Assembly (NCBI GenBank): GCA_913009415.1
Contig: CAJVYM010000009.1
Location: 1-41,286 of the forward strand
DNA from: an uncultured bacterium
GTDB taxonomy: Bacteria > Bipolaricaulota > Bipolaricaulia > UBA7950 > UBA9294
Direction of reading: 5' to 3'
Length of the DNA stretch: 41,286 nt
Under the pieces are notes generated by a model that was not told the DNA's origin, made no database searches, and saw nothing but the letters and a program-made list of their open reading frames with translations. Shown piece after piece: positions 3,830 through 32,764 of this stretch (positions within the stretch are counted from its first letter, which is position 1; every line of letters begins with the position of its first letter). The translations under genes and the position numbers were made by a program.

Positions 3830-3858
3830 TTGACAGAGGAGGTGATTATCCCTATACT
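3830..3858 (+). promoter_or_regulatory. Sigma70-type promoter TTGACA-N17-TATACT ahead of the aromatic supraoperon
   Basis: TTGACA 3830-3835, TATACT 3853-3858, spacer exactly 17 nt. Confidence 0.8.
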
Positions 3859-3867
3859 GGGATTAAC

Positions 3868-3969
3868 ATGCTAGAAGCTAACGGGCAGTTGACCTTGATC
3901 GTTCGAAGTGACTCCCCCAGCTTCTATTGGTACTACTACTTTAAGACTGGCTTTCCTCTGCGCACCTAG
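3868..3969 (+). CDS. Putative 33-aa aromatic leader peptide MLEANGQLTLIVRSDSPSFYWYYYFKTGFPLRT
   Basis: ORF read directly; codons 19-25 are Phe-Tyr-Trp-Tyr-Tyr-Tyr-Phe, with another Phe at 29; lies between a promoter and a terminator upstream of aroH. Confidence 0.82.
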   Translation: MLEANGQLTLIVRSDSPSFYWYYYFKTGFPLRT

Positions 3970-4003
3970 TTGTAACTAGGTAGCAGGTTTCAGGAAAGCC
4001 AGT
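3946..4003 (+). promoter_or_regulatory. Leader hairpin: perfect 12-bp stem ACTGGCTTTCCT/AGGAAAGCCAGT enclosing an inner stem ACCTAGTT/AACTAGGT
   Basis: Arms 3946-3957 and 3992-4003; inner arms 3964-3971 and 3974-3981; 5' arm overlaps leader codons Thr-Gly-Phe-Pro. Confidence 0.85.
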
Positions 4004-4008
4004 GTGAC

Positions 4009-4038
4009 GACTACAGGCATTGCCTGTGGTCTTTTTTT
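4009..4038 (+). terminator. Intrinsic terminator (attenuator) before aroH
   Basis: 10-bp stem GACTACAGGC/GCCTGTGGTC (one G-U), 3-nt loop, then T7 at 4032-4038. Confidence 0.9.
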
Positions 4039-4079
4039 GGATCGGTGAAAACCGCGACCCTAAGAGGAGGATCCGTAGA

Positions 4080-4457
4080 ATGAGATGTTTGGGAGTGCGA
4101 GGGGCGACGAGCGTCACTGACAACACCCGAGAGTCGATCATCGCTGCCACCAGAGAGGTCTTGGAGGAAATCGTAGCGAAAAACGACCTATCAATCGATG
4201 ATGTGGCAAGTGTGATCTTTACCGCCACCTCCGATCTTGACGCTGCTCATCCGGCTAACGCAGCGCGGGAGCTGGGGTGGATCAATACCCCGCTCCTCTG
4301 CATGCAGGAGATGTTCGTCGTTGGGGGACTGCCGCGCTGCGTGCGCGTCCTCATCCTGTGGAACAGCGAAAGGCAAGCTGATCAAGTGCATCACGTCTAC
4401 CTAGGAGAGGCACGTAGCCTGCGCCCAGACCTACTGAAAGGAGAAAACGATGACTGA
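4080..4457 (+). CDS. aroH: Chorismate mutase, AroH type
   Basis: MRCLGVRGATSVTDNTRESI..., monofunctional AroH-like; SD AAGAGGAGG upstream. Confidence 0.88.
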   Translation: MRCLGVRGATSVTDNTRESIIAATREVLEEIVAKNDLSIDDVASVIFTATSDLDAAHPANAARELGWINTPLLCMQEMFVVGGLPRCVRVLILWNSERQADQVHHVYLGEARSLRPDLLKGENDD

Positions 4458-5328
4458 GGTGATGTTCCAAGGAATTGCCGGGGCATATTCGGAAGAGGCG
4501 ATTCGTCAGTTCTTCGGTCCGCAAGTAACAAGCGTGCCCAGCGCAAGCTTCGCGAAGATGTTCGCAGCAGTGGAGGCGGGGGAGGCTAAGTACGCCATGC
4601 TCCCCATGGAGAACTCCATCGCCGGGACGGTCAATCAGTCGTACGAGCTGTTGATGGAACACGACCTGCGCATCTATGGAGAAGTGATCTTGCGCGTGGA
4701 ACACATGCTGCTCGCCCCTCCGGGCACGTCCCTTTCCGATATAAGGATGGTTCGCTCACACCCACAGGCATTGGCCCAGTGCCAGCGATACATCGCCGGA
4801 AAAGGTCTCACCCCCGAAACAGCAATCGATACGGCGGTGAGCGCTCGCGACCTGGGACAGTCTCCTGAAAGAGGGGTGGCCGTCATCGCTAGCCGGTTGG
4901 CAGGCGAGCTGTACGGGCTCGATATCCTGGCTAACAACATCGAAGACTTCCAGTTCAACTACACCCGCTTCTTCGTCCTGTCACTGGAGGAGGCCGTGCG
5001 CGCACAACGTTCCAAGACCTCGCTCGTCTTCACCACCCCCCATCAACCTGGGGCACTGTACGCGTGCATCGGGGAGCTGAGCAGGCGGGGGATCAACCTC
5101 ACCAAGTTAGAGTCGCGCCCCCGCCTCAACCGACCGTGGCAGTACCTGTTCTATCTGGATTTCGATGGCCACTACAAGGATCCGGATTGCGAGGCAGCGA
5201 TCCTCGGGCTGTTGCACCGCTCCTCGTTCGTCAAGCTGCTCGGATCGTACCCCGCAGCGACAACCCCGGTCCCCCAGGAAACCGCGGCCCCCACAGATAA
5301 CCCAATAAATCAGGAGGCATCTCAATGA
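4450..5328 (+). CDS. pheA: Prephenate dehydratase with C-terminal ACT domain
   Basis: [39 protein letters not shown] and ACT region LTKLESRP; overlaps aroH. Confidence 0.93.
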
Positions 5329-6338
5329 TGATCGTGATGAAACAAGGAGCAACGACTGCTCAGGTGGCGAACGTCACCGCCCGCATCGAGCAGATGGGGT
5401 GTCAAGCGCACCTGTCGCGTGGAGAGGAGAGGACGATCATCGGGATCATCGGCAACGGCCGTCCGATCGATCAGGAGAAGTTGGTGCAGATGGACGGAGT
5501 GGAGCGCGCAGTCCCCATCTTGAAGCCTTTCAAGAGGGCAAGCAGGGAGTTTCATCCCCAAGACACGCTGGTCTCGGTGAACGGTGTCGTGATCGGTGGA
5601 CCGAAGCTGGTGGTGATGGCCGGGCCGTGCGCGGTGGAGAGCGTGGAACAGATGCTGGAGGCGGCACAAGCAGTGAAGGAAGCGGGAGGGACCATCTTAC
5701 GAGGAGGGGCGTTCAAACCGCGTACCTCACCCTACAGCTTCCAGGGACTGGGAGTGGAAGGGCTGCGTATCCTGGGTCAGGTACGCTCCGAGGTCGGCCT
5801 GCCGGTAGTCACCGAAGTGATGGATCCGGAACTGGTCCCCCTGGTGAGCACATATGCCGATATCCTCCAGATCGGGGCGCGCAACATGCAGAACTTCGCG
5901 CTTCTCCACGCCGTGGGGGAAGCACAGCGGCCAGTCCTCCTGAAACGAGGGATGATGTCCACCATCGAGGAGCTGCTGATGGCAGCAGAGTACATCCTCT
6001 CACACGGAAACGATCGCGTCATCCTGTGCGAGCGAGGGATCCGGACCTTCGAAACATACACCCGCAACACGATCGATATCAATGCCGTCCCCTCGCTCAA
6101 GCAGCTCACTCACCTACCGGTGATCGTCGATCCGAGCCACGGGACGGGAAAATGGGAGTTAGTGGAGCCGGTCTCCCGTGCCGCCATTGCCGCGGGAGCG
6201 GACGGGCTGATCATCGAAGTCCATCCGCACCCCGAAGAGGCGCTGTCCGACGGTGCTCAATCCCTCAGACCGGAGCGATTCGCCGCTCTCATGGAACACC
6301 TGCGCCCAATCGCCGCAGCTGTGGGGAGAGAGTTATGA
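5325..6338 (+). CDS. aroF: 3-deoxy-7-phosphoheptulonate synthase with N-terminal ferredoxin-like regulatory domain
   Basis: [43 protein letters not shown] overlap with pheA. Confidence 0.95.
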
Positions 6339-7195
6339 CCCGGCTTGCTGATGCGCGCGTAGTCATCGTCGGTCTCGGGCTGATGGGGGGATCGCTTTCC
6401 GGAGCGCTGCGCGGACGATGTGCAAGGGTCACCGGCGTGGCACGTCGGGAAGAAACCATCGAGAGCGCTCTTTCACGTGGGCTGATCGACGATGGCACAA
6501 CTGACCTCGTAAGCGTAGTCGACGGGGCGAAGATTGTAGTATTAGCAACACCAGTGAGGACAATCATGAGGCAGATCGAAGAAATCGGCCCCCTCCTCTC
6601 ACCTGGCTGCTTGCTGATGGACATCGGAAGCACCAAAGCGCAGATCGCCAAGCAAATGGAGCACCTCCCCGCGAGTGTGGAGCCGTTGGGTGGCCATCCC
6701 ATGTGCGGGCGAGAAGTGGCGGGGATCGCAGCGGCTGAGGCGACTCTCTATCGTGGATGTACGTTCATCCTCACCCCGCTTGCGCGTACCTCCCCGGATG
6801 CACTTGCACTCGGGGAATCTCTGGTGCAAGCGGTTGGGGCTCATCCGCTAGTCCTCAAGCCAAACCAACAGGACCGATTGGCAGCGACGATAAGCCATCT
6901 ACCGTATCTCCTTGCCTGCGCCTTGGTGAACACAGCCGACGTTCTTACGTCGAGCGACCCGGCGGCGTGGGAGATCATCGCCGGCGGTTTCCGTGATACA
7001 ACCCGCATAGCGGGAAGCGACGTGACGATGATGCTCGACATCCTGCTCACCAACCGCGAGGAGGTCCTGGAGGCGCTCAACACCTACCGGGCACACGTGC
7101 GAAGGTTGGCTCAGCTAATCGCTTCGGGAGAGGAGAAGGACCTGCGTCAAGCTTTGACAACGATCCGCAAGTTGCGCAGGGAGATGTACCCGTGA
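6335..7195 (+). CDS. tyrA: Prephenate dehydrogenase
   Basis: [17 protein letters not shown] Rossmann motif; [22 protein letters not shown]. Start ATG at 6335 overlaps aroF stop; the longer ORF upstream is spurious. Confidence 0.92.
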
Positions 7196-8484
7196 AGCGC
7201 CTGAGAATAGAGCCACACCATCCATTGCAGGGGAGGCTGCAGCCTCCTGGGGACAAGTCGATCTCCCATCGGGCGCTCCTTCTGGCAGCAATCGCCGATG
7301 GTGATAGCGTCATCACTAACTTCCTCCCCTCCCGCGATTGCCTGGCCACGCTCGCCTGCGTACGCGACTTGGGAGTGCACATCACCGTGCACGATCACGC
7401 AACGCTCACCGTACACGGTCGGGGATTACACGGACTGCGCTCATCAACAGGCCCTCTCGATTGCGTGCGGTCAGGAACGACGATGCGCCTCCTCGCTGGT
7501 CTGCTCTCTGGGCAAGCGTTCTCCACCATCCTCACGGGTGAGGAACAGCTGCTGCGCCGACCGATGGAACGGGTCGCGGGGCCACTGCGCCGTTTGGGCG
7601 CTAAGATAGAGACGAGCGATGGTCACGCTCCCCTCTCCATACACGCGGGTGAATTGCAAGGAGGCAATCTGCCCCTGAGCGTACCCAGCGCACAGGTGAA
7701 GAGCGCCCTCCTCCTCGCCGGATTGTACGCTTCATCGCCTGTGAGCGTGCATCAATCGGCACCGACGCGGGACCACACCGAGAGGATGCTTGCCTGGATG
7801 GGGGCGGATATCACCATCGATGTAGATCGCGCCACTGTTAATCCTACAAACTGCCTATCACCGCTCTCCATCGGTATACCAGGAGATATCTCCGCAGCGG
7901 CGTTTCCCATCGTCGGGGCAGCCATCGTTCCGGGATCGGAAGTCATCCTCACCGGGGTGGGAATTAACGCCACCCGTACCGGGATCGTCGATGTGCTTCA
8001 AGAGATGGGTGCACAGATCGATATTTCTCACGAGCATATGGAGGGGAACGAACCAGTGGGACAGATCAGGGTGAGCGCTTCCGCGCTTCGCGGGGTGAGG
8101 ATCGGCGGAGAGACGGTGGTGCGGATGATCGACGAGCTCCCCCTGCTCGCTGTGGCAGCGACGCAGGCTGAAGGGCGGACGGAGGTGTGCGATGCGGCGG
8201 AGCTACGAGTGAAGGAGACGGATCGGATCGCCACGGTGGTGGCGGAGCTGCGCAAGCTTGGGGCCCGAATCGAAGAAAAGCCTGACGGGTTAGTGGTCGA
8301 GGGGCCGACCGCGCTCACCGGGGGGACTGTCGATAGTCACGGAGATCATCGCCTGGCAATGGCACTAGCAATCGCGGGCCTGGTAGCCGAGAAAGAGGTC
8401 GTCGTGCACAACATAAGCTGTATCGGAGATTCATTTCCCGACTTCATCAGCCAGATGAAATCGATCGGAGCATCCTATGATTGA
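7192..8484 (+). CDS. aroA: 3-phosphoshikimate 1-carboxyvinyltransferase (EPSP synthase)
   Basis: GDKSISHRALLLAAIADG, SGTTMRLLAG, RVKETDRIATV, DHRLAMALA; GTG start. Confidence 0.96.
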   Translation: MKRLRIEPHHPLQGRLQPPGDKSISHRALLLAAIADGDSVITNFLPSRDCLATLACVRDLGVHITVHDHATLTVHGRGLHGLRSSTGPLDCVRSGTTMRLLAGLLSGQAFSTILTGEEQLLRRPMERVAGPLRRLGAKIETSDGHAPLSIHAGELQGGNLPLSVPSAQVKSALLLAGLYASSPVSVHQSAPTRDHTERMLAWMGADITIDVDRATVNPTNCLSPLSIGIPGDISAAAFPIVGAAIVPGSEVILTGVGINATRTGIVDVLQEMGAQIDISHEHMEGNEPVGQIRVSASALRGVRIGGETVVRMIDELPLLAVAATQAEGRTEVCDAAELRVKETDRIATVVAELRKLGARIEEKPDGLVVEGPTALTGGTVDSHGDHRLAMALAIAGLVAEKEVVVHNISCIGDSFPDFISQMKSIGASYD

Positions 8485-9367
8485 CGCGCGCACACAGCTT
8501 GTGGGACTGATCGGCTGGCCGGTGGAACACAGCCTCTCTCCTGTAATGCACAATGCTGCGTTTGCCGAGCTTAAAATGAATTGGTGTTACGTGCCGCTAC
8601 CCGTTCCCCCTCATGAAGTGGCTACCGCCCTGGCCGGCTTGGCCGCGCTGGGTTTTCGCGGAGCGAACGTGACCATCCCCCACAAACGCTCGGTCTTAGG
8701 TGTCCTCTCCTCCGTCTCCCCCCAGGCAAGAGCCCTTGGCGCAGCGAACACTCTCGTGATCGAGAAGCATGATAGAAAGGCTATCAGGGGAGAGAACACC
8801 GATGCCGCGGGATTCTCCGCTGCCATCGCCGCCGCGGGATTCTCCGCTGCCGGCAGCAAAGCGCTGATCGTCGGCGCGGGAGGCGCGGCGCGCGCTGCAA
8901 TCTACGCTCTCATCGAAGGCAAGGCGGAGACAGTGACGGTTCTAAGCCGCCGCGTCGCTAAGGCGCGGGAGGTCGTAGACTGGTTCACCGTGACCAGGCA
9001 GAGTAGCACGCGGCTGCGCGCAGCAGGACTGAATGCAGAAAGCCTCATCGCACACGCCGCAGACGCTGACCTGTTAGTGAACGCAACGCCCGTGGGGATG
9101 TGGCCCGCGGTCGAGGGCTCCATCTGGCCAGAAGGAAACGCGGTCCCTTCCCACCTGACCGTATTCGACCTTGTGTACAACCCCGACCGCACGCGTCTGC
9201 TCCAGCAAGCAGCAAGCTGCGGAGCAAGGGGTATCTCGGGTCTGGAGATGCTGGTCCAACAAGGAGCGCGCTCGTTTTTCATATGGACGAACAGACAGGC
9301 GCCGATTGAGAGCATGCGACGAGCGTGCAAACAACAACTTATGCATGAAGCAGGGAGGATGGGATGA
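8477..9367 (+). CDS. aroE: Shikimate dehydrogenase
   Basis: GLIGWPVEHSLSPVMHNAAF, NVTIPHKR, GENTDAAGF, IVGAGGAARAA. Confidence 0.95.
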   Translation: MIDARTQLVGLIGWPVEHSLSPVMHNAAFAELKMNWCYVPLPVPPHEVATALAGLAALGFRGANVTIPHKRSVLGVLSSVSPQARALGAANTLVIEKHDRKAIRGENTDAAGFSAAIAAAGFSAAGSKALIVGAGGAARAAIYALIEGKAETVTVLSRRVAKAREVVDWFTVTRQSSTRLRAAGLNAESLIAHAADADLLVNATPVGMWPAVEGSIWPEGNAVPSHLTVFDLVYNPDRTRLLQQAASCGARGISGLEMLVQQGARSFFIWTNRQAPIESMRRACKQQLMHEAGRMG

Positions 9368-9441
9368 CCATCGTACTGCTCATCCTCCAACTCAACCACT
9401 TCCTATCCTGGCGTCTGGCGCTGTGGTGGCGTCCCATCTAA
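9364..9441 (+). CDS. trpL: Putative trp leader peptide, 25 aa: MTIVLLILQLNHFLSWRLALWWRPI
   Basis: ATG overlaps aroE TGA (ATGA); SD GGGAGG at 9353-9358; three Trp codons including a tandem pair (9424-9429); lies directly ahead of trpE. Confidence 0.72.
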   Translation: MTIVLLILQLNHFLSWRLALWWRPI

Positions 9442-9501
9442 CTCATGTTGCAACTGGAGCGATTTTGAATTCGTGGAGAACCAGAAAAAAGGAGTTAGAT
9501 G
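9435..9501 (+). promoter_or_regulatory. Long-range inverted repeat pairing the trpL stop region with the trpE RBS/start
   Basis: CATCTAACTC (9435-9444) perfectly complementary to GAGTTAGATG (9492-9501), which carries trpE SD bases and ATG. Confidence 0.65.
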
Positions 9502-11019
9502 ATGTATTATCCTAAGCTTGATGAAGTGAAAAAACTTGCTACAACCGGGAACTTGATCCCCATATACAAAGTGATCTCTGCTGACCTGGAAACGCCTGTT
9601 TCCGTATACCTCAAGCTACGGGGAGCGGGCCCATCTTTCCTGTTAGAAAGCGTAGAGAAAGGACAGCAGGTGGGGCGATACTCTTTTCTCGGGGTAGATC
9701 CAACCGGCGTGTTCACCGCCACGAATGGCGAACTCACCCTGAGTGAAGGCGGGACGACAACCAAGTTTGATCCAGAAAACGCAGATCCATTGATCGCGAT
9801 GAAACAGGTGCTGGGGCGCTACCATCAGGTGCCAAACGCGCACTTGCGAGGTTTTACCGGAGGACTGGTCGGGTATCTTGGTTACGACGCGGTGCGCTTC
9901 TTCGAGCGCGTTCCCCTGTCGGCCGAGGAGGGTCTCGATCTTCCCGACGCCGTCTTCTTGTTGATGAGCCGGCTGGTGATCTTCGACCACGTCAAGCACC
10001 AGCTTATGGTGGTGGCAAACGCACACACAGACGGGGATGTGGAGCGCGCTTACGATGAGGCCACCGCGGCCATCGACGCCGTCATCGAGCGGCTGAAACT
10101 ACCGCTCGCGGAGCAACCCGCGCCATCCTTCGATCGCTTGCCTGCTGAGAACTGGCACGCCAACCTCTCACAAGAGGCGTTCGAGGAGAGGGTGAAAACG
10201 GCAAAGGAGTACATCCGCAGCGGCGACATCTTTCAGGTGGTTCTCTCCCAACGCCTGTCCCGCGACTGCCATCTGGATCCCTTCTCCATCTACCGCCACC
10301 TGCGGATGCTGAATCCATCCCCGTACATGTTCTTCTTCCAACTGCCAAATGACCTTCACATAATCGGTTCTTCGCCAGAGATGCTAGTGCGTCTACAGAA
10401 AGATGACGCGGAGGTACGCCCGATCGCCGGCACCCGCCCCCGAGGAAAGACACCGAAGGAGGACGAGGCCCTTGCCGAGGAGCTAAGCAGTGATCCTAAG
10501 GAGAGGGCAGAACACGTAATGTTGGTCGACCTGGGGCGCAACGACTTGGGCCGCGTTTGCCGCTACGGCACCGTCTCCGTTCCTGAGCTGATGAAGATCG
10601 AACGCTACTCGCACGTGATGCACATCGTCTCCAGCGTCAAAGGGACCCTGCAGCCGGAGAAGGACGCGTTTGACCTCCTGCGGGCAACCTTCCCCGCGGG
10701 GACAGTATCTGGCGCTCCCAAGATCCGCGCCATGGAGATCATCGCCGAATTGGAGAAGGAGAGGCGCGGGCCGTACGCCGGCGCAATCGGGTACTTCAGC
10801 TACTCGGGAGGCATGGATACGTGCATCGCCATCCGCACATTGATCATGAAGAACAAGAGGATCCATGTCCAGGCTGGGGCGGGAATCGTCGCCGACTCCG
10901 ATCCAGCGCGGGAACACCAGGAGACGCTCAACAAAGCACAGGCACTGGCCGAGGCAGTGCGCACCGTGGAGGAAGAGGTCGTAGCGAACGCGTCAATATC
11001 GACAGGAGGCGAAGCATGA
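9499..11019 (+). CDS. trpE: Anthranilate synthase component I
   Basis: SGDIFQVVLSQRLS, PIAGTRPRGKTPKEDEALAEEL, FPAGTVSGAPKIRAMEII, GAIGYFSYSGGMD. Confidence 0.96.
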   Translation: MMYYPKLDEVKKLATTGNLIPIYKVISADLETPVSVYLKLRGAGPSFLLESVEKGQQVGRYSFLGVDPTGVFTATNGELTLSEGGTTTKFDPENADPLIAMKQVLGRYHQVPNAHLRGFTGGLVGYLGYDAVRFFERVPLSAEEGLDLPDAVFLLMSRLVIFDHVKHQLMVVANAHTDGDVERAYDEATAAIDAVIERLKLPLAEQPAPSFDRLPAENWHANLSQEAFEERVKTAKEYIRSGDIFQVVLSQRLSRDCHLDPFSIYRHLRMLNPSPYMFFFQLPNDLHIIGSSPEMLVRLQKDDAEVRPIAGTRPRGKTPKEDEALAEELSSDPKERAEHVMLVDLGRNDLGRVCRYGTVSVPELMKIERYSHVMHIVSSVKGTLQPEKDAFDLLRATFPAGTVSGAPKIRAMEIIAELEKERRGPYAGAIGYFSYSGGMDTCIAIRTLIMKNKRIHVQAGAGIVADSDPAREHQETLNKAQALAEAVRTVEEEVVANASISTGGEA

Positions 11020-11600
11020 TCGCCGTCATCGACAACTACGACTCCTTCACCTACAACCTGGTCCAGTACCTGGGAGAGATGGGAGCACAGCTAGAGGTGT
11101 ATCGAAACGACGAGGTGACGCTGGAGGAACTGGAGAAGCTCCGCCCTTCGGCGATAGTAATCTCGCCCGGGCCGGGTCGCCCGGAAGGAAGCGGGATCTG
11201 TCCCGAGGTAATCCGTCGCTTTTACACCACAACCCCGATCCTCGGCGTCTGCCTCGGCCACCAAGCTATCGCCTACGCATTCGGCGGAACAGTCGGACCG
11301 GCCCCGCGCCTGATGCACGGAAAGACATCCAGCATCTACCACGCTTCACAGGGTATCCTCTCCTCCATTCCCAGTCCGTTCATCGCCACCCGTTACCACT
11401 CGCTCATCGTGGAGGAGCCGCTCCCCGCAGACCTTGTAGTGACAGCGTTCACCACCGCGGGGGAGATCATGGGATTGCAACACCGCACTTATCCCGTGTT
11501 TGGCGTGCAATTTCATCCTGAATCGATCCTCACTGTCGTGGGAAAGCGCTTGCTGGAGAACTTCCTTGTCATCACAAAGGAGGCGAAGAATGGATATTAA
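11016..11600 (+). CDS. trpG: Anthranilate synthase component II (glutamine amidotransferase)
   Basis: MIAVIDNYDSFTYNLVQYLGEMG, ISPGPGRPEGSG, GVCLGHQAIAYAFGG, GVQFHPESI; overlaps trpE by ATGA. Confidence 0.96.
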   Translation: MIAVIDNYDSFTYNLVQYLGEMGAQLEVYRNDEVTLEELEKLRPSAIVISPGPGRPEGSGICPEVIRRFYTTTPILGVCLGHQAIAYAFGGTVGPAPRLMHGKTSSIYHASQGILSSIPSPFIATRYHSLIVEEPLPADLVVTAFTTAGEIMGLQHRTYPVFGVQFHPESILTVVGKRLLENFLVITKEAKNGY

Positions 11601-12627
11601 GTCAGCATTAACAACCCTGACCAAGGGAGAGAACCTCTCGCTTGCTCAGGCCGAAGAGGTGATGGAGGAAATCATGAGCGGTGGGGCAAGCGATGCCCAG
11701 ATCGCTGGCCTGTTGATCGCCCTGCGGATGAAGGGGGAGACAGTGGAGGAAATCGCGGGCTTTGCTCGTTCCATGCGGAAGAACGCTGTCGTGGTCCCTT
11801 CGGGTCATCCGTTGCTGCTCGACGTCTGTGGCACAGGCGGTGACAGCCGGGGGACGTTCAACATCTCCACCGCAGCGGCGCTCGTCATAGCCGCTGCTGG
11901 GGTCCCGGTAGCTAAGCACGGGAACCGCTCCGTGTCCAGCAAGTGTGGCAGCGCGGACGTCCTCGAACGACTTGGGGTCAGGTTCAACCTCACCCCGCAG
12001 GAGATCGGACAGTGCATCCATGAGGTAGGGATAGGCTTCCTCTACGCTCCCCACCTCCATCCCGCCATGCGCTACGCCATCGGGCCACGGCGCGAGATGG
12101 GGGTGCGCACCGTGTTCAACATCCTCGGTCCATTAACCAATCCCGCGGGCGCGAACGTCCAACTCCTGGGCGTCTACCGCCCCGAGCTCACCGCGGTTAT
12201 GGCCAAGGTACTGCACGCCCTCGGATGTCAAGGAGCGTTCGTGGTGCACGGGGGTGACGGGTTGGATGAGCTCTCCACCACCGGGAGGAACCGTATCACC
12301 GAGCTCCGGGGGGAGGAGATCAACACCTACACGCTCGATCCGCGTGACCTCGGCCTTCCTCCAGCGACGCTCTCCGATCTGCAGGGGGGAGACGTAGAGG
12401 AGAACGCAACGATCATCACCCAGATCCTCGATGGAGAACTCGGCCCGAAGCGCGATATTGTCCTGCTAAATGCCGCTTATGGTCTTGTCCTGGGAAAGGT
12501 GGCAGCAAACATCAGCGACGGGTTGCAACAGGCAGCTTGGGCGATCGACTCGGGGGCGGCGCGGGGAACGCTCGCCTCGCTGGTCGCCTTCACGCAGGAA
12601 AGGAGCAAGAGTGATGATCCTCGATGA
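11590..12627 (+). CDS. trpD: Anthranilate phosphoribosyltransferase
   Basis: DVCGTGGDSRGTFNIST, VAKHGNRSVSSKCGSADVLE, GPLTNPAGA; start ATG at 11590. Confidence 0.96.
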   Translation: MDIKSALTTLTKGENLSLAQAEEVMEEIMSGGASDAQIAGLLIALRMKGETVEEIAGFARSMRKNAVVVPSGHPLLLDVCGTGGDSRGTFNISTAAALVIAAAGVPVAKHGNRSVSSKCGSADVLERLGVRFNLTPQEIGQCIHEVGIGFLYAPHLHPAMRYAIGPRREMGVRTVFNILGPLTNPAGANVQLLGVYRPELTAVMAKVLHALGCQGAFVVHGGDGLDELSTTGRNRITELRGEEINTYTLDPRDLGLPPATLSDLQGGDVEENATIITQILDGELGPKRDIVLLNAAYGLVLGKVAANISDGLQQAAWAIDSGAARGTLASLVAFTQERSKSDDPR

Positions 12628-13411
12628 GATAGTTGCCCATAAGGAGGATGAATTGCGCCAACGCCGGGTGGCAGTACCCATCTCCACCCTGGAAGCAAGG
12701 GTCAAGGCCCAATCGGCCCCGATTTCGTTCGTTGCGGCGCTGCGGGAAGGACGCCCGGCGCTGATCGCGGAGATCAAGAGGGCCTCCCCTTCCCGCGGAG
12801 AGATCGTCGAAAGGCTTGACCCGGTGAAGCTGGCCCTCATCTACGCCGAGCACGGGGCTAATGCTATCTCGGTGCTCACAGATGAACACTTCTTCCGAGG
12901 CTCTCTCGCCGATCTGGAAGCGGTGAAGCAGGCGCTGTCGAACGCTCGCTGGGAGATCCCGGTCCTGCGCAAGGACTTCATCCTCTCCCACTACCAGCTC
13001 CTGGAAGCACGCGCTGCCGGAGCGGACGCTGTCCTGCTCATTGCCTCCATCCTCTCGGACACGCTGTTCTCATCCCTGCTAGCGGAGACACAATGGTTGG
13101 GGATGACCGCGCTTGTTGAGGTACATACCGAAGAGGAGTTGGCCCGGGTTCTGGCCCACCATCCGCGGGTGATCGGGATTAACCGTCGCGATCTGCGCGA
13201 CTTTCACATCAACCCGGACATCTTCGCGCATCTGCGCCCACTGATCCCGCCTGACTCGCTCGTAGTGGCAGAAAGCGGGATCCACAGCCGCTTGGATGTT
13301 GTCAAGTTGCACAGGATGGGAGCCGATGCCGTGCTCGTGGGAGAGGCGCTGGTAGGTGCGAATGACGTCGGAGCAAAAGTGGCGGAATTGTGCGAAGGAG
13401 GTGGAAAATGA
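12614..13411 (+). CDS. trpC: Indole-3-glycerol phosphate synthase
   Basis: ALIAEIKRASPSRG, VLTDEHFFRGSLADL, LRKDFILSHYQL, GINRRDLRDF, VAESGI; GTG at 12611 is an alternative start. Confidence 0.95.
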   Translation: MILDEIVAHKEDELRQRRVAVPISTLEARVKAQSAPISFVAALREGRPALIAEIKRASPSRGEIVERLDPVKLALIYAEHGANAISVLTDEHFFRGSLADLEAVKQALSNARWEIPVLRKDFILSHYQLLEARAAGADAVLLIASILSDTLFSSLLAETQWLGMTALVEVHTEEELARVLAHHPRVIGINRRDLRDFHINPDIFAHLRPLIPPDSLVVAESGIHSRLDVVKLHRMGADAVLVGEALVGANDVGAKVAELCEGGGK

Positions 13412-14058
13412 CCGTGGTCAAGATCTGCGGCATTACCAACAAAGAGGACGCCCTCGCCTCAGCACAGGCAGGAGCCGACCTGTTGGGGTTCGTCTTCTAC
13501 CCCCCGAGCCCAAGAAGCATCGATCCGGCACGCGCAACGAGGATCATCGACACGGTAACACGCGCCGGATACCCGGCACGCTTCGTGGGGGTATTTGTCA
13601 ACGAGCCAGAAGGCCACATCAGGGAGATAGCTGCTCACTGCCACCTTCATCACGTGCAGCTTCACGGGAGCGAACCACCGCAGCTTGTCTCTCACCTGGC
13701 TCAGGACGGCCTCTCCGTGATCAAGGCAGTGCGTATCGGTGGCGATGACTCGCTCCTTGAAATGATGCGTTACTCGCCCTCCCTGTACCTGTTGGACAGT
13801 TCCGTCTCTGGTTTTCTCGGAGGGAGCGGGAGGAGGTTCGACTGGAAGATCGCCCAGCGCGCCAGGGACCTCGGCTCGTTCCTCCTTGCCGGCGGGCTTG
13901 ACCCAGACAATGTCGCCGCAGCTGTCCGCGCAGTGCGGCCGTGGGGAGTGGATGTCTCAACCGGGGTGGAGAGCTCCCCTGGACAGAAGGATCACGATAA
14001 GATTCGTCAGTTCATCGCGCGTGCAAAGGAAGATGATAGGAGACAATATGCCCAATAA
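13408..14058 (+). CDS. trpF: Phosphoribosylanthranilate isomerase
   Basis: [55 protein letters not shown]. Confidence 0.95.
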
Positions 14059-15280
14059 GGAAAATATAGAAGACACGATGTATCATGAAACCCTCCCCGA
14101 CCCACGCGGCTACTTCGGGCTTTACGGGGGGAGGTACGTCCCCGAGACGTTGATGTCCACGCTCGACGAGCTGGAGAACGCCTACCAGGAAGCAAAAGCC
14201 GATCCATCGTTCCATCAGGAGCTGGACGGACTCCTGGCAAATTACGTCGGGCGGCCCACTCCGCTTTACTTCGCCCGCAACCTGAGCAAAAGCTGCGGCG
14301 GAGCCAAGATCTACCTGAAGAGGGAGGACCTCGCCCACAGCGGCGCACACAAGATCAACAACACTCTCGGACAGGCGCTTTTGGCGCGACGAATGGGAAA
14401 GCACCGCTTGGTGGCGGAGACCGGGGCCGGGCAGCACGGCGTGGCCACGGCCACCGCCGCGGCGCTACTAGGTATGGAATGTGTCATCTACATGGGAAGC
14501 GCGGACATGGCGCGACAGGCACCGAACGTGGACCGGATGCACCTGTTAGGGGGAACGGTGCGGGAAGTAAATACCGGGAGCCGCACCCTCAAGGACGCGA
14601 TCAACGAGGCGATCCGAGATTGGGTGAGCAACGTGCGTTCCACCTACTACCTGCTCGGCTCGGCGTTGGGCCCCCATCCCTATCCCCTGATCGTGCGCGA
14701 TTTCCAGACCGTCATCGGTCGAGAGGCGCGAGAACAGATCCTCGCCGCTGAGGGACACCTCCCTGATCTCCTTATCGCCTGCGTGGGAGGAGGATCGAAC
14801 TCCATCGGATTGTTCCATCCGTTCCTCGATGACCCGGTAAGGATGATTGGAGTGGAGGCCGGAGGTCGAGGGATCGAGACCGGAAAGCACGCCGCCCGGT
14901 TTGCCGACCCGCGGCGTGGAAGGCTCGGCGTGCTGCACGGCACGCGCACCTACGTGCTGCAGGACGCGGATGGGCAGATCCTCCCCACACACTCCATCTC
15001 CGCTGGCCTCGATTACCCGGCGGTGGGCCCGGAGCACAGTTATCTGCGTGACCAGACCCGGGTGAAGTACACTTACGCCACAGATGCGGAGGCGCTTGAC
15101 GCGTTTCACACCCTCTGCCGCATGGAGGGGATCATTCCCGCGCTAGAATCGGCGCATGCGGTTGCCGAGGCAATCAAACGGGCACCAAAATTGGGCCCGG
15201 ACCAGGTGATCATCGTCAATCTGTCGGGACGCGGGGACAAGGACTTGGACACCGTAATCAAGATAATGGAGGCGGAATGA
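14048..15280 (+). CDS. trpB: Tryptophan synthase beta chain
   Basis: [71 protein letters not shown]. Confidence 0.97.
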
Positions 15281-16080
15281 TGGACGGAATCGAGCACATC
15301 ACCGCTGCGTTTGCGCAGGCAAAACGGGAGAATCGGGCAGCGGTGATCCCTTATCTCCCCCTGGGATATCCGCAACCGGAGCGTTCGCTCGCCCTGGCCG
15401 AAGCGGCGATCGACGGCGGCGCAGATCTGTTGGAACTCGGCATCCCGTTCTCCGACCCGTTGGCGGACGGGCCCCTGATTCAACAGGCAACGCACACCGC
15501 CCTCCAACAGGGGATAACGGTCGCTCGTTGTCTGGAGATGGCAAAGAAGCTGCGAAAAAGGGAGATCTCCCCTCCGTTCGTGTTCATGGGATACTACAAT
15601 CCCATTCTTGCCTACGGGGTGGAGGAGTTCTGCCGCGGATGCACTGACGCGGGCGTAGACGGGCTGATCGTTCCCGATCTCCCACCGGAAGAGGGGAAGG
15701 AACTGGAAGGCGCATGCCAAGAACAGGGGATCGCCCTTATCTACCTTGTCGCCCCCACCAGCCCCCCAGAGCGCGTGCGGCTCATCAGCGAGCGTTCGCA
15801 GGGGTTCATCTATCTCGTATCGGTGACCGGGATCACCGGACCGAGGGATCAGCTCCCCTCCGATCTAGCCGCGTTCGTACATCGAGTGCAGATGATCACC
15901 GACAAGCCACTGGCAGTTGGGTTCGGCATCTCCTCCTATCCTCAAGCAAGCAGAGTGGCGAAGCTTGCCGATGGGGTGATCGTGGGAAGCGAACTGTTGC
16001 GCCGGGCGCAAGGGAACGATGGGGTAGCGCAGGTGCGTGCGTTCGTCGCTGGGTTGCGCCGGGCAGCAATAAAAGGATAA
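15277..16080 (+). CDS. trpA: Tryptophan synthase alpha chain
   Basis: [51 protein letters not shown]. Confidence 0.96.
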
Positions 16081-16091
16081 AAAGGAGGACG

Positions 16092-17207
16092 ATGAGCGCT
16101 ATTCGTTTCTTGACTGCGGGGGAGTCACACGGGCCGTGCTTGACCGCTATCGTAGATGGCCTCCCCGCAGGCCTTCCGATCGACACCTCATTGATCGACC
16201 GCGATCTTGCGCGGCGCCAGGGCGGGTACGGGCGCGGTGGGAGAATGGCTATCGAGAAGGATCACATCGAGATCACCTCCGGTGTCATCGGCGGAAAGAC
16301 GACCGGGGCGCCGGTGGCACTACGAATTGAGAACAGAGATTGGGAAAACTGGCGCGAGCACTGGGCTGTGGGCGACCTTCCCGCACTCACCGTTCCCCGC
16401 CCCGGGCACGCCGACTACGCCGGTATGATCAAGTACGGCCTGCCCGACGCTCGGCCAATCCTGGAGCGCGCAAGCGCCCGCGAGACGGCGGCACGGGTAG
16501 CGGTCGGAGCGCTGGCAAAGCAGCTCCTCGCTGAGTTCGGGATCACCGTGGGAAGCTACGTCGAGCGGATCGGCGCGATAAAAGCACAAATCCCGGATCT
16601 GCCGCAGGCAGAGCTGTGGACTCTTGCCGAGACGAGCGACGTGCGCTGTCCGGACGTGGACGCGACGGTCCGTATGCGGGCAGCGATCGACGCGGCGCGA
16701 ACGGCCGGAGACACCCTCGGCGGAACTTTCGCAGTCATCGCCACCGGCGGTCCGGCCGGTCTGGGGAGCCACGTCCAGTGGGACCGGCGGCTCGACGCCC
16801 GGCTGGCGCAGGCGCTCGTCTCGATCCCAGCAGTGAAGGGGGTCGAGATCGGAGACGCGTTTGAAAACGCCACCAAGCCAGGACGAGAAGTGCACGACGA
16901 GATGTTCCCGGACAACCGTGGTAATGTAACGCGCATTACAAATCGGGCCGGGGGGATCGAGGGCGGGATGTCGAACGGCTCTCCGATCGTGCTCAAAGCG
17001 GCGGTAAAGCCGATCCCGACGACACTCACACCGCTGCGCTCAGTCGATCTAGCGACCGGCCAGTCAGCCCGTACAGAATATCAGCGTTCGGACGTGTGCG
17101 TGGTGCCAGCAGCGGCGGTGGTTGGAGAGGCGATGGTTGCGTTCATCCTTGCCGATGCGCTCATCGAGAAGCTGGGCGGGGATTCTATCGTGGAGATGAA
17201 ACGATGA
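16092..17207 (+). CDS. aroC: Chorismate synthase
   Basis: RFLTAGESHGPCLTAIVDGLPAG, DLARRQGGYGRGGRM; start ATG 16092 after SD AAAGGAGG. Confidence 0.96.
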   Translation: MSAIRFLTAGESHGPCLTAIVDGLPAGLPIDTSLIDRDLARRQGGYGRGGRMAIEKDHIEITSGVIGGKTTGAPVALRIENRDWENWREHWAVGDLPALTVPRPGHADYAGMIKYGLPDARPILERASARETAARVAVGALAKQLLAEFGITVGSYVERIGAIKAQIPDLPQAELWTLAETSDVRCPDVDATVRMRAAIDAARTAGDTLGGTFAVIATGGPAGLGSHVQWDRRLDARLAQALVSIPAVKGVEIGDAFENATKPGREVHDEMFPDNRGNVTRITNRAGGIEGGMSNGSPIVLKAAVKPIPTTLTPLRSVDLATGQSARTEYQRSDVCVVPAAAVVGEAMVAFILADALIEKLGGDSIVEMKR

Positions 17208-18769
17208 GAAACATCATCATTACAGGCTTCATGGGCACGGGGAAGACCGCGGTTGGCCGCGTTGTAGGGCAGAAGCTCGGACGCGAGTTCGTAGACACAG
17301 ACGCCAGGATCGAAGCACTGACCGGAAGAGAGATATCCAAGATCTTCACGCGCGATGGGCAAGAGGCATTCCGTAACATGGAACAAGATGTCTGTCGCAA
17401 GCTAAGCGAAAAGGAGGATCTTGTTATCGCCACCGGCGGCGGGACGCTGATCGATACAGAGAACCGGGAGCTGATGATGCGTACAGGCACAGTGGTCTGC
17501 CTTACGGCAAGCGCAGAGGAGATAATGCGCCGACTCGGTCGCACCGATAAGTCAAAGCGACCGCTCCTTGAAACCTCGGACCTTGAAGTGGCTATCGAGA
17601 GCTTGCTCAAGGCGCGCAGTCAGATTTACCAAGCTTTCCCGTGGCGAATAGACACAACGCACCTGACGATCGAAGAAGTGGCCAAGCGCGTTGTCGAGAT
17701 CTCCGAGCGGATCGCGATCCCGGTTCGCTACCCGGGGGGGGAATACGATATCCGGATCGGCGCCGGCCTTCTCGAACGCGTGGGACAGATCCTGCTAGAG
17801 GAACTATCTACAGGACGGATCTGCGTCGTCACAAACACGGTCGTCTCACCCCTCTACAACGCTGCGGTCGAGAAATCGCTGCGGAAGGCTGAATTCAACG
17901 TGTCCACCTGCATCATCCCTGACGGGGAGGAGCACAAGACCTTGAACACCGTGTCGCGCCTGTACGAGAAGCTACTCGACGCGGAATTGGATCGGGGCGG
18001 GACGGTCGTCTCTCTTGGCGGTGGGGTGACCGGCGACATCGCCGGATTCGCCGCGGCCACGTTTATGCGCGGAGTGAAGTTCGTCCAGATTCCAACAACA
18101 CTTCTGTCGATGGTCGATGCGAGCGTCGGAGGAAAGACCGGAGTCGACCTCCCACAAGGGAAGAACCTCGTCGGCGCGTTCAAGTTTCCACAGCTTGTCC
18201 TCATCGATACGCATGTTCTAGCCACCCTGCCCGATGAAGAGATCAGAAACGGTGCCGCCGAGGCGATCAAACACGGTATCATCGCCGATCCCGACCTGTT
18301 CGATCGCTTGAGGAACGGGCCCTTGCCGTTCACACCGGAGCTGATCGCGCGTGTTTTGAGGGTCAAGATAGGGATCGTTGAGGAGGATCCATACGAGCGT
18401 GGACGCAGGGAGGTCCTCAACCTCGGGCACACCGTGGGACACGCGATCGAACAGGTGAGCAAGTTCACGATCCCTCACGGGGCTGCTGTGGCGATCGGCC
18501 TCGTCGCCGCGGCGCGGATTGCCGTTCGGCTCAAGCTGGCGGATCACGATCTGGTAGAGCGGATAGAGAACGCCCTGTCCACATGGGAACTTCCGATCAA
18601 GGTCCCAGAGCTTTCCGTAGATGAGATCATCGCGGCGCTGGCCCACGACAAGAAAAGAAGAAACGGGCAGACCCGCTTTATACTCCCGCGAAGGATTGGG
18701 GCAGTGGAGGCGGTGGACAACGTGTCGGCGGCGATAATCCGATCCGTACTGCACGAGATGGAAGAGTGA
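17204..18769 (+). CDS. aroKB: Fused shikimate kinase / 3-dehydroquinate synthase
   Basis: N-terminal IIITGFMGTGKTAVGRVVG (kinase P-loop); C-terminal GGGVTGDIAGFAAATFMRGVKFVQIPTTLLSMVDASVGGKTGVD (DHQ synthase); one uninterrupted frame. Confidence 0.95.
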   Translation: MRNIIITGFMGTGKTAVGRVVGQKLGREFVDTDARIEALTGREISKIFTRDGQEAFRNMEQDVCRKLSEKEDLVIATGGGTLIDTENRELMMRTGTVVCLTASAEEIMRRLGRTDKSKRPLLETSDLEVAIESLLKARSQIYQAFPWRIDTTHLTIEEVAKRVVEISERIAIPVRYPGGEYDIRIGAGLLERVGQILLEELSTGRICVVTNTVVSPLYNAAVEKSLRKAEFNVSTCIIPDGEEHKTLNTVSRLYEKLLDAELDRGGTVVSLGGGVTGDIAGFAAATFMRGVKFVQIPTTLLSMVDASVGGKTGVDLPQGKNLVGAFKFPQLVLIDTHVLATLPDEEIRNGAAEAIKHGIIADPDLFDRLRNGPLPFTPELIARVLRVKIGIVEEDPYERGRREVLNLGHTVGHAIEQVSKFTIPHGAAVAIGLVAAARIAVRLKLADHDLVERIENALSTWELPIKVPELSVDEIIAALAHDKKRRNGQTRFILPRRIGAVEAVDNVSAAIIRSVLHEMEE

Positions 18770-18777
18770 CACGGTAA

Positions 18778-18797
18778 CCCCGCAGCGTGCTGTGGGG
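18778..18797 (+). repeat. Intergenic hairpin CCCCGCAGC-GT-GCTGTGGGG downstream of aroKB
   Basis: 9-bp stem with one G-U; no U tract; the flank ACGGTAACCCCGC recurs inverted at 32161-32173. Confidence 0.6.
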
Positions 18798-18872
18798 CAT
18801 TGAAGGTCTAAGAGGAGTTGGTCCTCATTGTCGCAGTTTAATGTACCGCTTTGTCGCATAGGAAACAACCCC

Positions 18873-18912
18873 GGAGGGTGTAGTAATTCCTATACCGGCT
18901 ACTACACCCTCC
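18873..18912. repeat. Perfect 13-bp inverted repeat GGAGGGTGTAGTA ... TACTACACCCTCC
   Basis: Arms 18873-18885 and 18900-18912, 14-nt loop. Confidence 0.85.
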
Positions 18913-18915
18913 AAG

Positions 18916-19338
18916 CACACAAGGTGCAACGCTACATACATCTCTTGGCTCTCTGTCATTTCAAGCGGACAACCAAAGAGAAAGGTTCAAACGCTAAGAC
19001 TCCCACAGAGGGACAGAACTGCTTCACCACGAAGGACACGAAGCACACGAAGCGGTCAAAGGACGAGGCGCTTGATCCGAAGCTTGGTGACATTACACAG
19101 CCAATTATCGCATTCGACAACCCATCGAGCTCAATTCTTCGTGTCCTTCGTGCTCTTCGTGGTGAATTCCCTTCGACCTCCCGTCTTGCTTCGCAAGTAG
19201 CCCGTACAAACAACAAACCAATTCGCCCCTGGCGGATCTTCGCTTTCCTCCTCACAGCAAGCTACGGGGTGTCCAGCGAAGGCTTCTCATGAGACAATGT
19301 GACCTGTAATCAACGTCGCACACAAGGTGCGACGCTAC
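18916..19338. repeat. Direct repeats CACACAAGGTGC[A/G]ACGCTAC (18916-18935, 19319-19338) bracketing a long inverted repeat (19023-19052 / 19137-19166)
   Basis: Direct copies 19/20 identical; inverted arms ~25/28 identical, built of CACGAAG-type 9-nt units. Confidence 0.75.
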
Positions 19339-19363
19339 GAAAGCCCTAGTAAAGGAGGTATCT

Positions 19364-19867
19364 ATGAATACCACTGAAAATAGGCAGTTTAGTATCCTTA
19401 TTCTGCACGGCCCGAACTTGAACCTTCTTGGGACTCGCGAACCCGAGGTGTACGGCGAGACGACGCTGGAAGCGATCAACGCCAAGCTGCGCGACTACGC
19501 GCGTGTACAGGGGATTGAGCTTCGCATCCTGCAATCAAATCACGAGGGGGCTCTGATCGACGCGATTCACGACGCGGTCGGCTGGGCGGATGGGATCGTG
19601 ATCAACCCCGGCGCTTACACCCACACGAGCATCGCGCTGCGGGACGCGATCGCAGGGGTCGGTATACCTACGGTGGAGGTACACCTGTCGAACATCCACT
19701 CCCGCGAGGAATTCCGCCACGCGTCGGTAATCGCTCCCGTCTGCGTCGGTCAGATCTCGGGATTCGGGGCGGAGAGCTACATCCTTGGGCTGAGTGCATT
19801 GACAGCCCTGCTCGCTTCATCGTCCGGTGTCGATGTTGACTTTGGCGCTTCGCGACGGCATGATTAG
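19364..19867 (+). CDS. aroQ: 3-dehydroquinate dehydratase, type II
   Basis: [68 protein letters not shown]. Confidence 0.96.
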
Positions 19868-23519: not shown

Positions 23520-26500
23520 CTACTTCTTCACGACCTCGGCGTGATCGATCGTAAGATCGCCGTTGTAGTCGTCGATCGTCAGGACGACGTGCGGCTGGAC
23601 GACGCGGTAGTTGCTAAGCGAGTACTCCACCACGTAGCGGTAGTCGTCCTCGGAACCATCGCCGTCAAAGTCGCCTTTCTTCACGTCCCTCGGAGCAAGG
23701 ATCCGCACCCGCACATCGACGAGACCGTTGGAGTCGATGTCGATTGCTACCGAATTAGCGATACCACAGCAAACGGTCGGCTCCAGCCACATCCGATCGT
23801 CGATCTCCTGATCAAAGTCGAGGTCGATCTTGCAGTAAGCGGTCGGGTGGTCTTCCGGATCGTTGGGGTGCGTCCCGGCAATGATTTCATCATCGTCGGA
23901 GAAGCCGTCGCCATCGGTGTCGATCGGTTGCATCTGCACCGGCTGCAGGATCGGGATCAGTTCCGAGTTGCACGGATCATCATCGAGCCCGTCGATGAAC
24001 CCATCGGAATCGGAGTCACGGTTCGTTGGGTCGAGGACGTCGACGTGACGGACAGTAAAGTCCGGCCCGTCCTCGTCGATCAGACCATCACCATCGTTAT
24101 CGATCCCATCGGGCGGGTCCTCATCGATCAGACCGTCGCCGTCGTTGTCCAACTCGGCGTGCGTGATCTCGGTGCACACGTAGGCGACTTCGGGCCCATC
24201 GAGGATGTAGTCGTTGTCCGTGTCGTGGTCGAGCGGGTTGGTGGGGTTGAACGGGTAAGCGGCGGCCGGGTTCGGCTGGTACCGCTCCGCGTAATCACTC
24301 AACCCATCGTGGTCGGTATCCGGATCACAGGGGTTAGTCTCCGTGGGATACGGAATCGGCGGGCCGGGGAGCGGATCGGCATGGTCGAACTCGCTCGGCA
24401 AGAAGTCGAAGTTCCCGTCATGGTTACGATCCTCGTAGCCATCGGAGAGGCCATCGCCATCGGTGTCAGCGACCAGCGGCTCCAGACAGCCGGGTGCGGG
24501 GTAGGTCACGGTAATCGCCCGGCCAAACAGGTCGGTCGTCGGGATCCAGCTCTGGCGTGAGGTCGAGAAGCTAAGCACCTCGATACCGTCGCCATCCCCA
24601 TCGCCATCCGTGTCGTATTGATTGGGATCGGTCTCTGGCGTTCCCGGCTCACCACTCTGCCATAGCTGCCCGATCGCCCCGTCCCAAGCACCGTTTCCGT
24701 TCTTGTCCTCACCGTAGCCGTGCGGATTCGGGTGATCCCCAATCCCATCGGCACTTCCGGTACGCACGCCACCAGTGCCGCAGTCGCTCAATCCAGGGGT
24801 GGAACACGCCTTACAGATCGGATTGACGGTAACGGTGGGGTGACTGCTTATCATGTATGGGGTTCCCGTTCCGCCGTCGCACAAGCCATCGCCGTCGGTG
24901 TCTGCGTTGGTCGGGTTAGTAGGATTGGACCCAAACACCTCGGCTGAGTCGAGCAGTCCGTCATCATCGGTATCCGGATCAAATGGATCGGTCGGGATCG
25001 GGCCGCCACCGGTTACCTCGTGCCAGTCGTTGCGACCGTCGTCGTCGGTGTCCCAGTCCTGGGGATTCGTACCCAGTCCAACCTCTTGTCCGTCGGTAAG
25101 CCCGTCACCATCGGAGTCCGCATCGCAGACGTTGCAGATTTGGTCATCATGCTGCTCCCCGGTCGCCGGGGTAACAACAGTGCGCACCGTCCCCGGAGCG
25201 GCAACGTCCGCCGCAGGGACATCGTGGAACCCCTCGATGAACGTGTAGGAGTAAGCAAAGCCGTTTGGCCCTGTGTGTGAGATCGGGATCACTGCTCCAT
25301 CCTGCACGCCGTCATCGTCGGAATCGGCATTGTTGACAAACGGACACTGCGTGTCCCGAGTTCCTCCGATCGCCCCAGCTAGGACGCTTACCCCGGTACC
25401 CGTGTAGACGGGAGTGCCACAGGATCCCTCGACCGGATCGGGGAGGTAATCATCATCAGTGTTGATGTCCAACGGGTCCGATTCCTGATCGAAGGTGCGC
25501 TGCGGATGGGTTCCGGGTGTTCCGCCGGTGGCGATCAGCTCGTCGGCGTCCATGATCGTGTCGTCGTCCGAGTCGGCATCCAGTGGATCGGTCCCGGTGG
25601 TATTGACCTCTTCGTAATCGGAGAGGCCGTCGTTGTCCGAGTCGACGTCGAGAGCGGGGACCGTGGGGGCGATAGCCGGACCGGGGGTCGGGGTGAAGGT
25701 GTAGAGCGGTCCGGTACCGGAGTAGTCCGCGACGGGGAGGACGGTGGACCGGCCTTCCGGAGTGACGGTGTTGAACCCTGGAGAAGGCTGGGAATCGGGC
25801 CAAGTCGCGGGCCGCCCGGCGACAGGCCCGCCGCCGAGCTGGGCCACTTCCTCGCCGTCGAGGATCCCATCGCCGTCGGTATCCGGATTGCACAGGTCGG
25901 TTTCGTAGTAGCCGTCGCTCGCCGGAGCGGCCTGAGTGTCGAACGATCCGATGGTACATCCCGATCCGTTCACGCCCCACGTCCCATCGTGGTTGGCGTC
26001 CTCCACGCCGTCCTGCAGCCCGTCGTCATCGGAGTCGTCATCGTTCACGAACGGGCAGTCGAGATCACGTGTTCCGCCAGTAGTGCGGGTGATCCCTAGG
26101 TCAGAGCCCTCCCACTCGATGTTGTCGGTAAGGCCATCGTCATCGGTGTCGATGTCCAGGGGATCGGATTCCTGGTCGAACGTACGCTGCGGCCATGATC
26201 CGCCGGTGCAGATGAGCTCATCGGCATCGCTGATCGTGTCGTTGTCACTATCGGCATCGAGCGGGTCGGTGTGGGTGATGTTCACCTCTTCGTAGTCGGA
26301 CAGACCATCGTTGTCCGAGTCGTCATCCAGGGCGGGCACCGTTGGATCAAGATCAGGGCCACTTACACCCACAGTGGTTGATACACCTTCCGGGATGACC
26401 GTGTTGAACCCCGGCGATGGCTGGGCCGCTGGCCACGTCGAGGGCCGACCGTCCACCGGTCCACCGCCGATCAGGGATGCTTCCTCACCGTCGGTGAGCC

Positions 26501-31946: not shown

Positions 31947-32764
31947 TCTCGCCCTCCCTGTTTAAATGTTATGCGATGTTATGTCACCTTCCTGCAGTGG
32001 TCTCTTCGCTGTTGACGAAGCAAAATGCCCTTCGATCAATGAAGAGCATTCTTAAGATACATCCTCTACACAGCGCCACTACAGCCACTAAACCTTCTCC
32101 CCGACCCTGGCAGCCCGGCGGTCTCCTTAGAGATCCGTAGCTTTGTACAGCCGCTTCGCAGCGGGGTTACCGTATTCAGGATCTAGCTTTAATACATCAA
32201 TATGCTTAAACCACTATACAAGGATTCGGGCGCTTTGTCAATAGCTGTGTCTCTTCGCCTAGAACATACTACAAACAATACTCTTTTCATCCTCAGATAC
32301 CACTCAAAGAAAGCGGTTATCACAGAACACGGATCCAGAGGAGGTATTTGTTTTGACAGCGCCACGGAAATGCCTCTTGTGTTTCCAGTGGTTTCCTTTG
32401 CGTCCTGTCTGTCAGAACACGACGGCAGACAGGCCTTTGCGTGAGAATGCTCTTGCCTTCCTCATTACCTGTCACTCACAACCCATCACTGTTTCTCGTC
32501 TCTGCGTGAGACACAAACTTCTTTCACACGCCCGCCAAGATCGCTAAGAAAGACTGGCACGTTCTGTTCTTCTCCGATATCGAGGTTTGACTTGCTGGCT
32601 CTTGCGTTGATGGATACCGAGAACGTTGGACACCAGGCCTGACGCTACCACAAGAAATGCATTGCTTTCGTAGCGTGGTAGCTTGCCTGCCACGTTCAGG
32701 CACGGCTCGCAACACGCGCCTCACGCGGCTATGGTCAACCAAATGGCGCGAACAACGGTGAGTC

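Follow-up and report, generated by a model that had tools for sequence, protein, structure and literature searches.

What controls an aromatic supraoperon that carries both aro and trp genes, and could a single leader peptide in front of it sense Phe, Tyr and Trp together? In Proteobacteria, trpL, pheL, thrL (Thr and Ile) and ilvL/ivbL (Leu, Val and Ile) combine a short open reading frame (ORF), runs of codons for the product and a terminator before the first gene. We examined a comparable element in the window, by which we mean the whole 41,286-nucleotide stretch analysed here, the ninth contig of a draft genome of 2.3 Mb.

Leader element and operon in the window

The element and the genes behind it comprise the following features.

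3830..3858, + strand: sigma-70-type promoter with a 17-nt spacer, TTGACA at 3830-3835 and TATACT at 3853-3858 (sequence)
3868..3969, + strand: leader peptide ORF of 33 codons, MLEANGQLTLIVRSDSPSFYWYYYFKTGFPLRT and a stop (sequence; orthologous ORFs in relatives)
3872..3926, + strand: hairpin A:B, outer stem 3872-3879/3919-3926 (RNA fold)
3922..3942, + strand: sensor codons TTC TAT TGG TAC TAC TAC TTT, reading F Y W Y Y Y F
3946..4003, + strand: hairpin C:D, perfect 12-bp outer stem 3946-3957/3992-4003 (RNA fold)
4009..4038, + strand: intrinsic terminator E:F, GACTACAGGC-ATT-GCCTGTGGTC-T7, stem 4009-4018/4022-4031 (RNA fold)
4080..4457, + strand: aroH, monofunctional chorismate mutase, the first structural gene (NCBIfam TIGR01796, 3e-40)
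4450..9367, + strand: pheA, DAHP synthase (aroF), tyrA, aroA and aroE (NCBIfam; same order in relatives)
9499..16080, + strand: trpE, G, D, C, F, B, A block (NCBIfam/Pfam)
15714..19867, + strand: aroC, aroK-aroB fusion and aroQ, a type II dehydroquinase (Pfam; tblastn synteny)

A preliminary description of this DNA had proposed a leader-peptide attenuator before an aro/trp supraoperon, and the promoter, the 33-codon ORF with its FYWYYYF run, the 12-bp stem and the terminator on which it built were all recovered, in sequence and fold, at the coordinates it gave. Gene order, the conserved run, the terminator and the stems support this proposal. The short ORF lies directly 3' of the promoter and 5' of the first structural gene, its run of end-product codons is kept among relatives in sequence comparison, and the intrinsic terminator separates it from aroH. 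Only 9 nt lie between the -10 box and the leader ATG (3868), and the leader mRNA probably has next to no 5' untranslated region. When the 500 nt upstream were dinucleotide-shuffled, 1 of 4000 shuffles contained an ORF with seven of eight aromatic residues; elsewhere in the window, counting both strands, no short ORF has as many as six of eight.

The region 3865-4045 is predicted to fold at -73.6 kcal/mol (z = -5.5; equalled by none of 200 shuffles) into three separate hairpins: A:B, C:D and the terminator E:F. Hairpin A:B, which was absent from the preliminary description, links the start-codon region with the first sensor codons. The apical stem of C:D (3964-3970/3975-3981) includes the leader stop codon, and 3 nt separate the last sensor codon from the base of C:D. 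Rfam models, including T-box, Trp_leader and Phe_leader at the gathering threshold, gave no match in the leader region of the window, and a scan of the leaders at eleven related loci likewise found none, the same three models included.

Downstream, the operon runs aroH-pheA-aroF-tyrA-aroA-aroE-trpEGDCFBA-aroC-aroKB-aroQ. In same-genus and same-family operons aroE adjoins aroC directly, without trp genes (tblastn synteny), and trpE is confined to the window genome among the 33 family genomes and 35 order genomes examined. Compared with full-length TrpE matches from other members of the phylum, the window TrpE shares only about 43-50% identity with most. On this comparison the trp block (9499-16080) was possibly gained laterally. 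Directly 5' of trpE, a 25-codon ORF, MTIVLLILQLNHFLSWRLALWWRPI and a stop (9364-9441), overlaps the aroE stop (ATGA) and contains three Trp codons; within 9364-9498, pairing is possible between the CTAACTC at this stop and GGAGTTAG, the trpE Shine-Dalgarno region. This ORF is possibly a second, Trp-specific translational control.

Elsewhere the window holds a c-di-GMP-I riboswitch at 32106-32181 on the reverse strand (Rfam RF01051, 38.8 bits), group II intron domains at the contig end (40983-41202; Rfam RF02005, 156.6 bits) and a 2368-codon ORF on the reverse strand (23520-30626).

Leaders of aroH in relatives and the Trp codon

Relatives were sampled from 100 genomes of the phylum, all of one class. 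All seven aroH operons found there begin with a leader ORF followed by this terminator, with sensor runs of FYWYYYF in the window, FYYYF in two same-genus relatives, and FYYRF, FYYWF, FFFYF and FFWF in the others. The second set consisted of 30 aroH upstream regions from a class reached via a Chloroflexota relative, including a second Chloroflexi genome (L050). Here an F/Y-rich leader and terminator lie upstream of aroH in 28 of the 30; the corresponding figures were 1 of 30 for the reverse strand and 1.5% for shuffles. An aromatic-rich ORF is kept across both sets, and C:D and the terminator covary in an alignment of aromatic-type leaders from the window's lineage (see below), in line with the preliminary description. 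A Firmicute aroH relative (L004) has no comparable leader with a terminator.

The preliminary description had also claimed that Phe, Tyr and Trp are sensed together, and here the evidence is divided. Aligned with the same-genus FYYYF leaders, the window run contains TGG TAC as an in-frame two-codon insertion; the window leader has a Trp codon and its operon has trp genes, whereas the same-genus leaders and operons have neither. This pattern suggests that the leader was re-tuned upon arrival of the trp block. Because the insertion is a single event, and because two relatives in which trpE was not detected, G023 (FYYWF) and G034 (FFWF), nevertheless carry a Trp codon, the re-tuning reading is suggestive rather than proven. 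Both of these genomes are 79-81% complete; they contradict a strict tie of Trp codons to trp genes. The FYWYYYF run in a trp-containing operon fits pan-aromatic sensing, if more weakly than had been claimed.

Four of the phylum's seven aro leaders have no Trp codon, nor do 26 of the 28 aromatic runs from the Chloroflexota set, and a separate ORF with three Trp codons stands directly before trpE. All of this would suit a leader that senses mainly Phe and Tyr, with its one Trp codon there by accident and the trp block under a Trp control of its own. We regard this as a real possibility, though the less probable one. It sits poorly with a clean two-codon insertion placed precisely within the sensor run, in the sole genome with trpE among the 35 of the order, and few codons per amino acid are enough in mixed leaders such as that of ilvGMEDA.

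Apart from the aroH leaders, three genomes of another family, f6 (loci L108, L110 and L111), have in common a 29-codon ORF ending SWPWLN or SWLWIV, about 220-370 nt upstream of a trpE match. These ORFs are probable Trp leader peptides.

A cassette family with other sensor codons

An exact-pattern search with the terminator stem alone returned 32 sites in 19 of the 100 genomes, several per genome. Of the 30 pattern loci with sequence examined, 27 are terminators of leader ORFs, and the three exceptions (two in family f4, one in f6) look like chance. A covariance model of the terminator gave 57 hits in 30 of the 100 genomes, nearly all in one bacterial family; at 20 further loci from this model a leader ORF was present at each among those listed. 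Sixteen of these 20 entered the analysed set of 44 leaders.

Across the 44 leaders the sensor classes are Thr, Met, Trp/aromatic and hydrophobic amino acids, and they usually match the downstream gene. Runs of TTTT or TTT precede homoserine dehydrogenase. An MMM run stands before a PLP enzyme of the methionine family plus aspartate kinase, and WYW or FYWFWY before the tryptophan-binding TrpX (or a similar protein) with a permease. The hydrophobic runs FIIMLL, HLVYWI and VVHYFILWM precede branched-chain-type binding proteins. On sequence comparison, the window leader is one member of what appears to be a single cassette whose sensor codons have been altered to suit downstream genes across the bacterial family. 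At five loci (L080, L030, L031, L044 and L045), MMM leaders lie 5' of LivK-like binding proteins; as a guess, methionine, and not branched-chain amino acids, may be the substrate of the transporters behind them. Thr-run leaders at L083, L092 and L097 precede small ORFs, and the two of these tested, those of L083 and L092, had no Pfam match.

The geometry of the leaders is constant. Three hairpins, including A:B and C:D, are present in the minimum free energy fold of all 44 leaders, with a mean z of -1.85 for A:B complementarity. A median of 5 nt separates the end of the sensor run from the base of C:D, and a median of 4.5 nt the end of C:D from the terminator. In 36 leaders the best-matching promoter has a spacer of 17 nt, and the distance from -10 box to ATG is 9-12 nt in 40. 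In an alignment of 15 aromatic-type leaders, the covariation score was 0.362 against 0.197 for shuffled alignments, a level reached by none of 500; over C:D and the terminator, two-sided cells numbered 34 against 11.9 in shuffles, and the signal was lost on sliding. Two-sided changes occur in 6 of 9 pairs of C:D and in 5 of 12 pairs of the terminator E:F.

Among leaders chosen by pattern, the terminator sequence is nearly constant even where C:D hairpins and sensors are unrelated, and the pairing tests described below found no RNA-only switch. Both observations would be in keeping with a trans-acting factor: a protein or small RNA would bind the conserved terminator or C:D, and the leader peptide would only help. 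However, shared descent accounts for much of the constancy, and distant members have compensatory terminator changes from A-U to G-C, so that the sequence itself is not strictly needed. We consider a trans-acting factor unlikely.

The switching step and known leaders

The preliminary description had drawn a classical attenuator, in which a stalled ribosome would mask 3946-3957 and the freed 3' arm would pair with the terminator 5' arm as an antiterminator (GCCAGTG/TACAGGC). That pairing can be drawn, between 3998-4004 and 4012-4018, and each of the three same-genus aro leaders, the window's included, has some weak D:E hairpin of -5.9 to -9.0 kcal/mol. In the window, however, it is weak, at -5.9 kcal/mol, and no better than in shuffles (z = +0.8); the pairs differ from relative to relative and are not kept in the other cassette groups. 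Across the 44 family leaders the terminator 5' arm has no pairing partner that is conserved, and group-wise consensus folds leave this arm mostly free. With a ribosome modelled on the last sensor codon, pairing of E was 0.35 against 0.51 with shuffled upstream RNA, and lower in 36 of the 44. Since E is less paired than in shuffles, the thermodynamic model predicts termination in every state. We therefore judge a D:E antiterminator in this lineage to be more doubtful still than a trans-acting factor.

Other candidates were also rejected. Long-range A:E pairing had a z of +0.57, and A:F pairing was inconsistent at -0.9. Enriched pairing of D with the U-tract arises only from the 7 nt adjoining the terminator stem, anti-Shine-Dalgarno complementarity of the D strand, as a 30S-binding site, is not in excess, and a start codon in the terminator loop is not conserved on inspection of the family leaders.

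By anatomy, the element works like a leader-peptide attenuator. Of the features that define such attenuators, a mutually exclusive antiterminator was looked for and not found in the window lineage, but was found in the Chloroflexota aroH leaders. In the latter, a stretch often about 20-30 nt past the run resembles the terminator 3' arm and can pair with the 5' arm at a mean of about -13 kcal/mol. In a swap test it paired better with its own terminator than with those of others (-12.8 against -11.4 kcal/mol; better in 22 of 28, p = 0.009), and the candidate stretch tracks changes in the terminator 5' arm. The classical antiterminator arrangement does fit these leaders.

We give a probability of roughly 85% to the reading that the window element is a ribosome-reading, leader-peptide transcription attenuator of the aromatic operon and a member of a re-tuned cassette family. 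A chance short ORF beside an unrelated terminator has a negligible probability: short ORFs are common, but this one was matched in 1 of 4000 shuffles, recurs at 7 of 7 phylum and 28 of 30 Chloroflexota loci, and shares the constant geometry of the 44 leaders.

From the computed features of this attenuator we infer its start site, translation, stalling and direction of control. Transcription would start about 2-4 nt 5' of the leader ATG, and a ribosome would read the peptide at once. If charged Phe-, Tyr- or Trp-tRNA were scarce, the ribosome would stall on FYWYYYF, wedged with A:B behind it and C:D ahead, and C:D would be held open; the sensor codons lie directly 5' of C:D, so by this geometry a ribosome on the last codon must keep the C:D base open. 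With ample supply the ribosome would clear, the three hairpins would form, and RNA polymerase would stop at E:F before aroH. The geometry also implies that A:B would shut the start region after that ribosome leaves. For the step from open C:D to read-through, no conserved antiterminator pairing appears to account. Tentatively, and against the odds as we see them, this near-leaderless, three-hairpin cassette, duplicated and re-tuned, may switch without an antiterminator, the wedged ribosome signalling via open C:D by an undescribed route.

Like trpL, pheL, thrL and ilvL/ivbL, the window leader has a short ORF, end-product codons and a terminator, and its run is mixed as in the thr and ilv leaders. 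Unlike them, it is a candidate for sensing the aromatic amino acids together, is probably near-leaderless with a hairpin over its start region, and has three compatible hairpins, no recognisable antiterminator and no Rfam family. The Bacillus supraoperon differs in using an RNA-binding protein, TRAP. Mixed leaders are covered in the available text of published work, as are leader peptides from Proteobacteria, Actinobacteria and Firmicutes and supraoperons for which attenuators have been proposed (PMC2965389, PMC1262725, PMC1173090, PMC7298713). Sinorhizobium meliloti trpL (rnTrpL) is described there as leaderless, its 5' end being the ATG (PMC7298713); the window transcript would likewise start almost at the peptide ATG, but rnTrpL is a Trp leader, and the likeness is one of start position. 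The Firmicutes hisS/hisZ leader peptides and 'hopping' attenuators, in the available text of Naville and Gautheret (2010; PMC2965389), are also leader peptides outside Proteobacteria and Actinobacteria with an attenuator copied between genes, whereas the window cassette appears to be re-tuned to several amino acid classes, and in another phylum. The TyrA review, in its available text, gives aro/trp supraoperons and predicted attenuators before Phe/Tyr operons (PMC1173090); as there, trp genes adjoin or sit within an aro operon. The aro/trp supraoperon literature searched does not, in its available text, describe a leader peptide that combines F, Y and W codons. Nor, in keeping with the preliminary description, was any leader sensing Phe, Tyr and Trp together found in the literature searched as a whole, which is weak evidence given that subscription papers were mostly outside it.

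These findings would add two groups to those with leader-peptide attenuation, neither of them covered in this respect by the literature searched, and they provide a candidate leader for several aromatic amino acids at once, covering the whole pathway. The window and its same-genus relatives would form a natural before-and-after pair, with trp genes entering an aro operon and a Trp codon entering its leader. In the cassette family the same device may be seen with varied sensor codons, which opens to direct test how the position of a ribosome would be converted into read-through when no antiterminator is visible.
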